In this document: piece after piece, positions 38,201 to 42,738 of the stretch | How the letters are laid out: the number at the start of each line of letters is the position of its first letter | Position numbering within the stretch: the stretch's first letter is position 1 | NCBI GenBank assembly: GCA_026195255.1 | Contig: JAPHSS010000004.1 | Coordinates: forward strand, 1-64,000 | Length of the DNA stretch: 64,000 bases | Direction of reading: 5' to 3' | From: Gammaproteobacteria bacterium | GTDB lineage: Bacteria > Pseudomonadota > Gammaproteobacteria > SZUA-229 | The notes under the pieces: model-generated | Told to the model about the DNA's origin: nothing | The model's database searches: none | What the model saw: only the letters and a program-made list of their open reading frames with translations | Made by a program: the position numbers and the translations under genes

Positions 38201-38258
38201 CTGTTAATTATTAATGTCATAATACGCTCAATATTTTTACATGCACAATGATTCTATT

Positions 38259-40952
38259 ATGGCAAAAAAACCTCCTTTTATTTTAGTTGATGGCTCTTCT
38301 TATTTATTTAGAGCCTTTCATGCACTACCGCCCCTGGAAAACTCTAAAGGGCAACCTACCGGTGCTATATACGGCGTTATAAATATGCTTAAGAAACTGG
38401 TATCTGACTATAAACCAGAATACATGGCGGTTGTATTTGATGCTAAGGGTAAAACATTTCGTAGTGATCTTTATACGGAATATAAAGCACATCGCCCTCC
38501 CATGCCTGATGATCTGCGTACACAAATCGAGCCGATACATCAATTAGTTGATGCTCTGGGATATCCTAGAATTATCGTGCCTAAAGTTGAAGCTGATGAT
38601 GTAATAGGCACACTGGCACAACAGGCAGAAGCCGATGGTCATGATGTGCTTATTTCAACCGGTGATAAAGACCTTGCTCAATTAGTCACCGATAAAATTA
38701 CGCTTATTAATACTATGACTAACCACATCAGTACACCTGAATCGGTTATGCAAAAATTTGGCGTACCTACGCAACAAATAATCGATTACCTGGCATTAAT
38801 CGGTGATACCTCTGATAACATTCCCGGCATCAATAAAGTAGGCCCTAAAACTGCAGTAAAATGGCTCGCACAATATGATTCAGTTGAAAACATTATAAAA
38901 CACGCAGATGAGTTTAAAGGCAAAGTAGGCGAGTACCTGCGCGAAGGCCTTGAACAACTGCCTCTCTCGTACCAGTTAGCCACCATTGTATGTGATGTAA
39001 AACTGGACGTGAAACCTGAAGACCTACAACTTCAGCCTGCTGACACACAAAGTCTTAAAAAACTGTATACCGAATATGAGTTTAAAAGCTGGCTAACTGA
39101 GCTGGATGATGAATCAACAGGTGCAGACTGCCCTAAACCTGGTATACAAGTAGATTATCAGACAGTATTAAAACAGCAGGCATTTGAAAACTGGTTAAAA
39201 CAACTCAAAAAAGCTGACATGTTTGCATTTGATACGGAAACCACCAGCCTTAATTATATGCAGGCTAAAGTGGTTGGGGTGTCGTTCTGTATTGAGCCTG
39301 GAAAAGCGGCATATGTGCCCTTTGCACATGATTATGAAGGCGCACCCGAACAATTAACTGAAGACATTGTACTGGGTGCTTTAAAACCATTACTAGAAGA
39401 CCCGAATAAAGCAAAACTTGGGCAAAACCTTAAATATGATGCACACGTATTACAGAATCATGGCATTTATATGCAAGGTATCAGTAATGACACACTGCTT
39501 GAGTCTTTTGTGCTCGATTCAACAAAACGTCATGATATGGACAGTATGGCCAGTCGTTTTCTTAATCATAATACTATTCACTTTGAGGATATTGCCGGTA
39601 AAGGTGCAAAACAACTAACCTTTAACCAGGTTGAGCTGGATAAGGCAGGCCCTTATGCTGCTGAAGATGCCGATATAACACTTCGTTTACACCAGAGTAT
39701 TCATGCTCAGTTAGAAGAAATACCTGAATTACTCAAGGTTTATAAAGAAATCGAACTACCTTTGATGCCCATCATTCAACATATTGAACGTAATGGGGTA
39801 AAAATTGATGCTGACATGTTAGCCACCCAAAGCCAGCAACTCGCTGAACGTATGGCACAAATTGAACAGCAGTCTTATGAAGTTGCCGGCGAAGAGTTTA
39901 ATCTGGCTTCACCTAAACAGATTCAGGCTATCTTTTTTGAAAAACTTGAATTACCTGTTATACGAAAAACCCCGAAGGGGCAGCCATCTACTGCTGAAGA
40001 TGTTTTACAGGAACTGGCCGAGGAGTTTGAGCTACCCAGGCTCATTCTGGAACACCGTGGTTTGAGTAAACTCAAATCCACCTATACCGATAAACTACCT
40101 AAACTGATTAATGTTAATACCGGGCGGGTACACACCAGTTACCACCAGACGGGTGCCGCAACCGGTAGAATGTCCTCCAGTGACCCTAACCTACAGAATA
40201 TTCCGGTTCGTTCTGAAGAGGGACGACGTATTAGACAGGCATTTATAGCCGATGAGGGTAACTGTATTCTGGCCGCTGATTACTCGCAAATTGAGTTACG
40301 CATTATGGCTCACCTGTCCGCTGATAAAAGCCTGTTAAAAGCATTTAAAGAGGGACTGGACATTCACCGTGCTACAGCTGCTGAAGTTTTTGATGTTCCA
40401 CTGGATGCCGTTGAAACGGAACAGCGGCGCGCAGCTAAAGCGATAAACTTTGGTTTAATTTATGGAATGTCTGCTTTTGGCCTTGCCAAACAATTAAAAG
40501 TAAGCCGTTATCAGGCTCAGGATTACATTGATCTTTATTTCGAGCGCTACCCTGGAGTAAAAGAATATATGGACAATACCCGAGAGCAGGCGCATGAAAC
40601 AGGTTATGTAAAAACTTTATTTGGACGTCGTTTATATTTACCTGAAATCAATTCTCGTAATGCTACGCGTAGACAGTATGCGGAGCGTACAGCTATCAAT
40701 GCACCGATGCAGGGAAGCGCTGCAGATATCATTAAACACGCCATGATAAATGTGTATAACAGCCTTCAAAACTCAAAAATATCTGCTCTGATCATTATGC
40801 AGGTTCACGATGAACTGGTATTTGAAGTCGCAAAAGATCATGTGGATGAATTAAGTGTCTTACTTCATAAAGAAATGGAAGGTGCCGCTGATCTGAATGT
40901 ACCCTTACTGGTTGATATCGGTGTTGGCGCTAACTGGGATGAAGCCCATTAA
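38259..40952 (+). CDS. polA: DNA polymerase I
   Basis: An 897-residue repair and Okazaki-fragment polymerase. From ATG 38259 it reads MAKKPPFILVDGSSYLFRAF; the in-frame ATG at 38241 would add six residues, and neither has a clear ribosome site. The 5'-3' exonuclease domain (about 1-290) shows KVEADDVIGTLA and STGDKDLAQLV. The 3'-5' proofreading domain keeps FAFDTETTSL, and DxE chemistry looks intact. The polymerase domain has motif A DYSQIELRIMAHLS (Asp674), motif B RRAAKAINFGLIYGMSAFGL and motif C QVHDELVFE (Asp851). It is followed by a structured RNA region, then by engB on the other strand. Confidence 0.96.
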   Translation: MAKKPPFILVDGSSYLFRAFHALPPLENSKGQPTGAIYGVINMLKKLVSDYKPEYMAVVFDAKGKTFRSDLYTEYKAHRPPMPDDLRTQIEPIHQLVDALGYPRIIVPKVEADDVIGTLAQQAEADGHDVLISTGDKDLAQLVTDKITLINTMTNHISTPESVMQKFGVPTQQIIDYLALIGDTSDNIPGINKVGPKTAVKWLAQYDSVENIIKHADEFKGKVGEYLREGLEQLPLSYQLATIVCDVKLDVKPEDLQLQPADTQSLKKLYTEYEFKSWLTELDDESTGADCPKPGIQVDYQTVLKQQAFENWLKQLKKADMFAFDTETTSLNYMQAKVVGVSFCIEPGKAAYVPFAHDYEGAPEQLTEDIVLGALKPLLEDPNKAKLGQNLKYDAHVLQNHGIYMQGISNDTLLESFVLDSTKRHDMDSMASRFLNHNTIHFEDIAGKGAKQLTFNQVELDKAGPYAAEDADITLRLHQSIHAQLEEIPELLKVYKEIELPLMPIIQHIERNGVKIDADMLATQSQQLAERMAQIEQQSYEVAGEEFNLASPKQIQAIFFEKLELPVIRKTPKGQPSTAEDVLQELAEEFELPRLILEHRGLSKLKSTYTDKLPKLINVNTGRVHTSYHQTGAATGRMSSSDPNLQNIPVRSEEGRRIRQAFIADEGNCILAADYSQIELRIMAHLSADKSLLKAFKEGLDIHRATAAEVFDVPLDAVETEQRRAAKAINFGLIYGMSAFGLAKQLKVSRYQAQDYIDLYFERYPGVKEYMDNTREQAHETGYVKTLFGRRLYLPEINSRNATRRQYAERTAINAPMQGSAADIIKHAMINVYNSLQNSKISALIIMQVHDELVFEVAKDHVDELSVLLHKEMEGAADLNVPLLVDIGVGANWDEAH

Positions 40953-41088
40953 AAAGTTTTTTAAAACTATTAGTAATAACAAATATATAGAGAAACTTGT
41001 TTAATTATTTCTTAAGAGTTAATTAAAAATACTTCAAAATCAGGCTGTGTTTTTTCCTAAATAGCGCTCACCACTCGTCGCCTTCATT

Positions 41089-41120
41089 TTGACTTGTGAC
41101 TAATTTGAACTTTACTTAAT
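41089..41120 (+). promoter_or_regulatory. Candidate sigma-70 promoter for the structured RNA
   Basis: TTGACT (41089-41094) is separated by 18 bases from TACTTA (41113-41118), with AT following. This would start RNA near 41125, just ahead of the hairpin series. The -35 is good and the -10 is moderate. Confidence 0.4.
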
Positions 41121-41124
41121 AACA

Positions 41125-41267
41125 GGAAGCCAGGCAGTTTTTCGAATTACGCTAAAGCCCAGCGTGAGCTCGCTTGCCTCCCTTAAGCGGGCAAAATTGA
41201 GGCCAGCCTCCCCAAGCCGGCCTCTATGTTACCCCTGACCACTTCCCTGGTGGTCAGGGTTTTTTTA
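41125..41267 (+). ncRNA. Candidate sRNA between polA and engB with CCUCCC loops
   Basis: This is the locus that holds Spot 42 (spf) in enterics and ErsA in Pseudomonas. The sequence is unlike Spot 42 but highly structured. Hairpins are ACGCT/AGCGT (41149-41165), TTGCC/GGCAA (41174-41194) with loop TCCCTTAAGCG, GAGGCC/GGCCTC (41199-41224) with loop AGCCTCCCCAAGCC, and a strong terminator (41233-41267). Two loops expose CCTCCC, which would pair with Shine-Dalgarno sequences. The plus-strand terminator and the promoter-like element at 41089 argue for an independent RNA of about 140 bases; processing from the polA 3' UTR is the alternative. Confidence 0.6.
41233..41267 (+). terminator. Strong intrinsic terminator after polA / candidate sRNA
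   Basis: The perfect ten-pair stem CCCTGACCAC (41233-41242) and GTGGTCAGGG (41250-41259) has a seven-base loop and is followed by eight T (41260-41267). Read from the minus strand there is no T-run, so it serves the plus-strand transcript, not engB. Confidence 0.92.
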
Positions 41268-41282
41268 TTTATAAACGCTTCA

Positions 41283-41882
41283 TTACGTCAGCTCAAACCA
41301 GACATTTAAGATATTCTGTAACTCTTCTACTCCGCTTTTCTTCAATGATGAAAACATTTGTACCGTTGCCTCTATTCCTTCATCTTTTAAAGCTTTTCTG
41401 ACGCCTAATAACTGCTTACTCGCAGCCCCTTTCTTAAGTTTATCCGCTTTGGTTAAAACGATGTGTGCAGGTGTCTTCATCTCAGCACACCATTGCAGCA
41501 TCTGCAGGTCATAATCTTTTAAAGGATGACGTATATCCATAATAACGACCAGGCCCCGTAGCTGTTTTCTCTCGCCCAGATACGCCTCCATCAAGTTCTG
41601 CCACTCGCGGCGCATTGCCTCGGGTACTTTCGCATAACCGTAACCCGGCAGATCAACCAGGCAACATTGCTCATTAAAAGGAAAAAAGTTAATTAACTGA
41701 GTGCGCCCGGGGGTTTTACTAATACGTGCGAGTGATTTCTGGTCACATAGAGTATTAATAGCACTCGACTTGCCTGCATTTGATCGGCCTGCAAAACCGA
41801 CTTCTAACATATCGTGTTCAGGAAACTGGCTGGATTTGCTAGCACTGGTTAAAAAGGTGGCTGTACGATAGTAATTAACCAT
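41283..41882 (-). CDS. engB: Ribosome-biogenesis GTP-binding protein YihA/EngB
   Basis: A 199-residue TrmE-Era-EngA-EngB-Septin GTPase needed for large ribosomal subunit maturation and usually essential. G1 is GRSNAGKS at 32-39. G2 is around TPGRTQ, G3 DLPGYG, G4 LTKADKLKKG, and G5 near SSLKKSG. Length is typical. Its tail-to-tail arrangement with polA is conserved in gammaproteobacteria. The gene starts 230 bases from cytochrome c4, transcribed the other way. Confidence 0.96.
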   Translation of the reverse strand: MVNYYRTATFLTSASKSSQFPEHDMLEVGFAGRSNAGKSSAINTLCDQKSLARISKTPGRTQLINFFPFNEQCCLVDLPGYGYAKVPEAMRREWQNLMEAYLGERKQLRGLVVIMDIRHPLKDYDLQMLQWCAEMKTPAHIVLTKADKLKKGAASKQLLGVRKALKDEGIEATVQMFSSLKKSGVEELQNILNVWFELT

Positions 41883-41981: not shown

Positions 41982-42010
41982 TTGCTGAAATAGCTGATCT
42001 GGTGTAATAT
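41982..42010 (+). promoter_or_regulatory. Candidate promoter for cytochrome c4
   Basis: TTGCTG (41982-41987) lies 17 bases before TAATAT (42005-42010), which is preceded by TG. The -10 is good and spacing ideal, while the -35 is only half-matching. About 100 bases of leader would precede the ATG at 42115. Confidence 0.4.
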
Positions 42011-42114
42011 TGCGCCACTTTTTGCCGTGGTTCAATTTACAGGCCATAATGGCAGCCCTTATTATTTCTAGCGTCAACATAACGAGACGTATAATCGTTT
42101 GGAGAAAACAAACA

Positions 42115-42738
42115 ATGAATTTTAAATCTCTGCTTGCAATCTTTGGCCTGACGGTTGGCCTAAATGTTACGGCACACGCTGCTGACCAGGCTGTTGACCT
42201 GGCTGCTGGTGAAGCAACCGCTGGAGCTATCTGTGCCGCTTGTCATATGCCAGATGGTAACAGCGTAGTTGATATTTTCCCTAAATTAGGCGGACAACAT
42301 GCTCAATATATCACTAAACAGCTAAATGATTATAAAAGCGGTGCTCGTCAGGATGAAACAATGACAGGTATGGTGGCAACACTGGCAACAGATGCAGATA
42401 TCGCAAATGTAGCTGCTTTTTTTGCTAGTAAAGACGTTACCGCTGCCACAGCAGATGACTCTAAAGTAGCTTTAGGTAAAGCCATATACCGTGGTGGCAA
42501 CACGACTACAAACTTACCAGCTTGCATGGGCTGCCATGGTGTAAATGGTTCTGGAAACCCAACGGCTAAATACCCATCATTAGCAGGCCAGCATGCAACA
42601 TACACTATCACCCAGTTAAATGCTTTCCGTGATGGCAAGCGGGCTAATGATAGTAATAAAATGATGCGTAATGTAGCTAATAAAATGACTGTGGCTGAGA
42701 TTGAAGCTGTAGCTAACTACCTTGCACAAATGAAATAA
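42115..42738 (+). CDS. Diheme cytochrome c4
   Basis: A 207-residue periplasmic diheme cytochrome that passes electrons to terminal oxidases. ATG 42115 has a clear GGAG ribosome site 12 bases upstream and opens a signal peptide (MNFKSLLAIFGLTVGLNVTAHA); the longer frame from 42010 is rejected. Two class I c-type heme domains follow, with CAACH near residue 41 and CMGCH in the second half, and Met ligands are plausible in MTGMVATL and KMMRNVANKM. The repeated GGQHAxYxxxQLxxxxxGxR pattern in both halves is the c4 signature. It precedes dsbA, and a terminator separates them. Confidence 0.93.
   Translation: MNFKSLLAIFGLTVGLNVTAHAADQAVDLAAGEATAGAICAACHMPDGNSVVDIFPKLGGQHAQYITKQLNDYKSGARQDETMTGMVATLATDADIANVAAFFASKDVTAATADDSKVALGKAIYRGGNTTTNLPACMGCHGVNGSGNPTAKYPSLAGQHATYTITQLNAFRDGKRANDSNKMMRNVANKMTVAEIEAVANYLAQMK

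Follow-up and report, generated by a model that had tools for sequence, protein, structure and literature searches.

The gap between polA and engB is the genomic position of the Spot 42 gene (spf) in Enterobacterales, and in the gammaproteobacterial genome analyzed here it holds a series of hairpins with C-rich loops. This locus raises the question of whether these hairpins belong to a small RNA (sRNA) gene in its own right and, if so, to which known RNAs it is related. An earlier note on the 64-kb stretch of DNA under analysis (hereafter, the window) had suggested an anti-Shine-Dalgarno sRNA that either took over the spf position or diverged from its occupant.

Gene layout and transcription unit at the polA-engB locus

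In the window, polA (DNA polymerase I) was identified through an NCBIfam equivalog match (1245.9 bits) at 38241-40952 on the + strand, and engB/YihA through a family match (251 bits) at 41283-41882 on the - strand, opposite to polA, delimiting a gap of 330 bases. The following features were assigned to this region.

41071-41080, + strand: box CCACTCGTCG, just 5' of the -35 hexamer, a possible regulator site; kept in several nearer genera (identical in same-genus, g3, g5 and g6 relatives) and looser elsewhere
41089-41094, + strand: -35 hexamer TTGACT; TTGAC at equal distance in most members of the bacterial family
41111-41116, + strand: -10 hexamer TTTACT (TTTAAT in most relatives) after a spacer of 16, also in relatives with the gene inverted with respect to polA
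41123-41267, + strand: putative sRNA gene of about 145 nt, delimited by promoter and terminator; start placed from the promoter position, +/- 3 nt
41147-41167, + strand: hairpin 1, loop AAAGCCC (fold, covariation); AGCCC invariant in 21 relatives
41168-41192, + strand: hairpin 2, loop CCUCCCU (fold, covariation); the loop contains CUCCC in 83 of 101 members across the class, a count that partly reflects selection by the search model
41199-41224, + strand: hairpin 3, loop CUCCCCAA (fold, covariation); the loop contains CCCC in 92 of the 101 members, again partly a product of model selection
41233-41266, + strand: rho-independent terminator, loop CUUCCCU and U7 tail (fold and independent terminator scan)

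The predicted fold of 41089-41267 comprises three adjoining hairpins, the first of which reads UUACGCU AAAGCCC AGCGUGA, followed by a terminator stem (41233-41259) and a U7 tract. Its minimum free energy is -60.4 kcal/mol, compared to -45.8 +/- 4.2 kcal/mol for shuffled sequences (z = -3.5), with one of 200 shuffles folding as well as the native sequence, and the terminator was recovered by a separate scan that is independent of the fold. The hairpin series and strong terminator described by the earlier note between polA and engB were hence confirmed, as was the presence of CCUCCC or CCUCCCC in two loops, which are those of hairpins 2 and 3. These two loops account for two of the six CCTCCC instances in the window, where 9.4 are expected. 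The AAAGCCC loop of hairpin 1 constitutes a third C-rich loop, and the terminator loop CUUCCCU is likewise C-rich.

A generic promoter scan, which requires an A at the second position of the -10 element, did not report a promoter in this region. In relatives from the same bacterial family, however, TTGAC(A/T) and TTTAAT or TTTACT, separated by 16 nt, are found at a fixed distance 5' of the sRNA. Since position 41089 corresponds to the -35 box of this conserved promoter, the RNA probably starts near 41123 and is about 145 nt long. The span originally proposed for the sRNA, 41089-41267, is therefore correct with regard to the hairpins and terminator, but its first bases are promoter. Comparison with relatives further indicates that the sRNA gene is its own transcription unit, because in genus g13 (L066, L073 and L076) it is inverted relative to both polA and engB while the -10 region is kept, and because a terminator-like sequence lies between polA and the sRNA promoter in the sister species G004 (L057). 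An RNA that follows polA on its strand could also be just the polA terminator region or processed 3' end, devoid of any function of its own. This explanation is extremely unlikely in view of the conserved promoter, of the inversion of the gene with respect to polA in one genus and in several families, of loci where engB lies within 3 kb and polA was not found, and of the evolution of the three stems by compensation around fixed loops. An SpfP-like small protein was also considered for this locus and rejected: the sole short frame noticed needs a GTG start (GUGAGCUCG) that is absent from the closest relative (CAAGCUCG), and one-base indels in the alignment break the frame.

Conservation within the bacterial family and across the class

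Regions adjacent to polA were sought in 48 genomes of the bacterial family, and roughly half of the genomes with polA yielded a recognizable copy of the RNA. In the resulting alignment of 21 sequences, AGCCC in hairpin 1 and CCCCAA in hairpin 3 are invariant, and CUCCC is present in hairpin 2 of all 21, even though the alignment program shifts this motif by one column in some of them. Compensatory changes in relatives, which the earlier note had named as a test, were observed as double-sided changes in 13 of the 23 base pairs. The alignment indicates that the hairpin structure is more than chance, since 93.1% of pair cells hold standard pairs (84.5% in shuffles) and 63 cells are double-changed (23 in shuffles), a support that collapses when pairing partners are slid. 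In genus g9 (L060 and L075), the C-rich loops of hairpins 1 and 2 are lost, and hairpin 3 retains UUUCCCCAA. The promoter, the terminator and the conservation of the loops jointly argue for the separate sRNA gene with anti-Shine-Dalgarno-like C-rich loops that had been proposed at this locus.

To delimit the distribution of this RNA, a covariance model (R1) was trained on the 21 family RNAs alone, without flanking genes. R1 scores its own locus, which belongs to the training set, at 104 bits (41145-41266), and matches 90 of 276 Gammaproteobacteria genomes (E at most 0.001), nearly always at one place per genome. Among 88 loci fetched outside the bacterial family, polA was found within about 3 kb in 53, engB in 64, both in 42 and at least one of them in 75; considering a 6-kb stretch, a 3-Mb genome and two genes, we estimate that fewer than one locus would show such linkage by chance. 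Across 101 R1 matches, 94.3% of pair cells are kept (69% in shuffled controls) and 536 cells are double-changed (139 in shuffled controls), although both comparisons lean towards structure, given that the alignment was fitted to it by the model. A phylum-wide R1 search yielded 3 of 249 genomes, all of them Gammaproteobacteria, under strict filters that also dropped true sX13 genomes; this search provided no support for the alphaproteobacterial alpha-r7 RNAs. About a third of the sampled Gammaproteobacteria hence carry a recognizable relative of this RNA, usually in the same place and under unconnected names or none.

Several R1 loci depart from the single-copy arrangement. The C-rich sRNA occurs in tandem, in two to five copies, at L177:3051-3803, L145:3060-3801, L182:2759-3693, L134, L140, L149 and L196, in a disposition that recalls sibling sRNAs. 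Relatives without polA or engB nearby in the fetched stretch were found at L222, L150, L151, L171, L172, L184, L193, L200 and L210, with neighbors judged by eye to be CopD-like and VanZ-like membrane proteins at L222. In the window, a cytochrome c4-like gene (42010-42738) lies 3' of engB, and many distant relatives retain this engB-cytochrome pair next to the sRNA.

Relationship to sX13, anti-hemB, ErsA and Spot 42

At gathering thresholds, Rfam models returned no match anywhere in the 64-kb window. The best three right-strand matches by E-value were sX13, anti-hemB and Pseudomon-1/ErsA, all of them below their gathering cut-offs: sX13 (RF02232) matched over its full model (1-115) at 41161-41267 with 40.4 bits (E = 1.9e-6; cut-off 50), anti-hemB (RF02837) with 26 bits (E = 3.8e-4; cut-off 49.5) and ErsA (RF01719) with 21.1 bits (E = 0.056; cut-off 50). 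The sole match of the sX13 model in the 3.56 Mb genome is the polA-engB locus (E = 4.6e-6), and in the same-genus genome G004 the anti-hemB model reaches an E-value of 6.7e-4 genome-wide. Among the 276 class genomes, the anti-hemB model matched 132, only 15 of them over the cut-off, and its matches fall on 80 of the 96 R1 places; three sub-threshold sX13 places also coincide with R1 places, and six of the 12 class matches of the ErsA model overlap them. Neither the name nor the threshold of the anti-hemB family conveys how much wider it is. In the opposite direction, true sX13 and anti-hemB genes are the best R1 matches in their loci, and a second model (R2) scores sX13 at 35-40 bits and anti-hemB at 38-40 bits, recovering L213, L222 and L225 (sX13, 35 bits; anti-hemB, 40 and 38 bits) even though they lie outside its training set. 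For ErsA, R2 yields 14.1 bits (E = 0.004).

The RNA described here resembles sX13 of the Xanthomonadaceae in its location 3' of polA, approximate length, three stems with C-rich loops and terminator, with full-length covariance matches in both directions, but its CCUCCCU and CUCCCCAA loops differ from the 4C/4C/5C loops of Xanthomonas. It shares a CCUCCCU-loop hairpin and terminator with anti-hemB (Bc7/ncS04) of Burkholderia, which differs in being named for a predicted hemB target and in lacking a C-rich loop on the third hairpin in L225. ErsA of Pseudomonas is also encoded in the polA-engB gap (PMC8575079) and presents C-rich loops, but it is sigma-22- and Hfq-dependent and contains a long unstructured part. 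Both the sX13 and ErsA loci carry an adjoining polA, and sX13 is reported to be always located downstream of this gene (PMC3771888). By description, the NgncR_162/163 sibling sRNAs of Neisseria are similar as well, with three stem-loops and loop pairing over ribosome-binding sites; they form an adjacent pair (PMC9973317), and tandem pairs beside engB are also present among R1 matches (L196).

We infer with high confidence from these sequence and structure matches that the polA-engB RNA, sX13 and anti-hemB are homologous, and ErsA probably belongs to the same family. The RNA in the window combines the features of the proposed polA/engB-linked C-rich sRNA superfamily, namely a match to R1/R2, C-rich loops, covarying stems and linkage to polA/engB. 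On this comparative evidence, it belongs to a very widespread and apparently unrecognized family, together with sX13 of Xanthomonas and anti-hemB of Burkholderia. Most of this sX13/anti-hemB-type family escapes the Rfam cut-offs, and curated names alone would overlook the RNA described here. The unification of sX13, ErsA and anti-hemB was not found in print in the open-access literature searched, in which no paper was found to treat sX13 and ErsA together and just two name anti-hemB as an sRNA. The 2013 report on sX13 pointed out that the polA locus of this RNA resembles the Spot 42 locus, and it asked about polA-locus sRNAs elsewhere (PMC3771888), a question that is answered in part by the class sample.

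With respect to Spot 42, the RF00021 model is positive in E. coli but matches none of the 276 class genomes, this genome included, and Spot 42 is absent from Rfam matches in the window at E-values up to 10. Conversely, the matches of R1 (8.4 bits) and R2 (8.6 bits) to E. coli spf are confined to its terminator. The earlier note was hence right in describing the sequence as unlike Spot 42, with no similarity in sequence or structure beyond the terminator, and on these searches Spot 42 is not demonstrably related to the sX13/anti-hemB-type family. The shared polA-engB position and the similar size would fit a diverged Spot 42 with common ancestry with enterobacterial spf, but these model results make that explanation very unlikely. 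The notion of a distinct RNA taking over the spf position, or diverging from it, is not supported either, in view of the homology to sX13 and anti-hemB and of the status of this RNA as a common occupant of the locus, given the 90 genomes with R1 matches and the absence of Spot 42 matches in the same sample. The origin of Spot 42 at the polA-engB locus thereby becomes a testable question. We lean slightly towards a broader scenario for the Gammaproteobacteria, the former Betaproteobacteria among them. In it, the ancestral occupant of the polA-engB gap would be one anti-Shine-Dalgarno sRNA with C-rich loops borne on covarying stems, with sX13, anti-hemB and ErsA as local names and Spot 42 as a lineage-specific replacement or extreme derivative; this RNA, at times encoded two to five times in tandem, would regulate translation globally throughout the class and date back to the origin of the class.

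Proposed mechanism and candidate targets

The locus most probably encodes a stand-alone, trans-acting sRNA of about 145 nt, belonging to the polA/engB-linked family and predicted to block G-rich Shine-Dalgarno sites through its C-rich loops; its transcription, repressive effect, targets and any Hfq involvement are deduced from sequence and from its relatives. In the proposed mechanism, a dedicated promoter and terminator would yield the RNA, whose stems would expose two or three loops rich in C (AGCCC, CCUCCCU and CUCCCCAA) for pairing with the G-rich Shine-Dalgarno regions (GGGAGG or GGGGAGG) of selected mRNAs, blocking ribosome binding as experimentally found for sX13; in a large part of the Gammaproteobacteria, the polA-engB gap would be the fixed location of this family. 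Through its C-rich loops, sX13 represses mRNAs that carry G-rich motifs close to the start, without need for Hfq (PMC3771888), and ErsA base-pairs, with Hfq, to the ribosome-binding site of algC (PMC6321483). Given the homology and the loop sequence, the RNA described here should pair with GGGAGG/GGGGAGG ribosome-binding sites, and knowledge on the targets of sX13, and possibly of ErsA, may be transferred as hypotheses. Repeated similar loops on rigid stems, present in tandem copies in some genomes, resemble titration devices, and the RNA could instead mainly sequester a protein favoring C-rich or hairpin-loop sequences. We regard this alternative as distinctly unlikely, since the loop motif complements Shine-Dalgarno sequences and the loops are C-rich, in contrast to CsrA sponges, which carry GGA. 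Mutants in sX13 loops and in target G-rich motifs also reveal a dependence on both partners (PMC3771888).

Unlike in sX13, for which hfq is a target, no G-rich motif was found before the hfq start in this genome. Binding of the RNA to Hfq is possible, as the genome encodes Hfq and the RNA has a U7 tail. Genome-wide, GGGGAGG occurs 4-10 nt before ATG 10 times, compared to 7 for the reversed control, and the corresponding counts in four relatives are 18/9, 11/22, 14/7 and 15/6. There is thus no clear, consistent enrichment in these five genomes, and the seed alone defines no regulon. Only conserved cases were hence retained as candidate targets. Three of the GGGGAGG leaders with a long reading frame behind them also occur in the sister species, namely those of rpoS, infB (an identification drawn from its sequence) and a dihydroorotate-dehydrogenase-like gene. 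For rpoS, the ribosome-binding site UGGGGAGGGCU is complementary to loop 3 over 8 nt and kept in three species of the genus. We predict rpoS as the best candidate target, followed by infB and the dihydroorotate-dehydrogenase-like gene. The motif is also shared with another genus in the EF-Tu leader, and with a third species upstream of an HNH-like gene.
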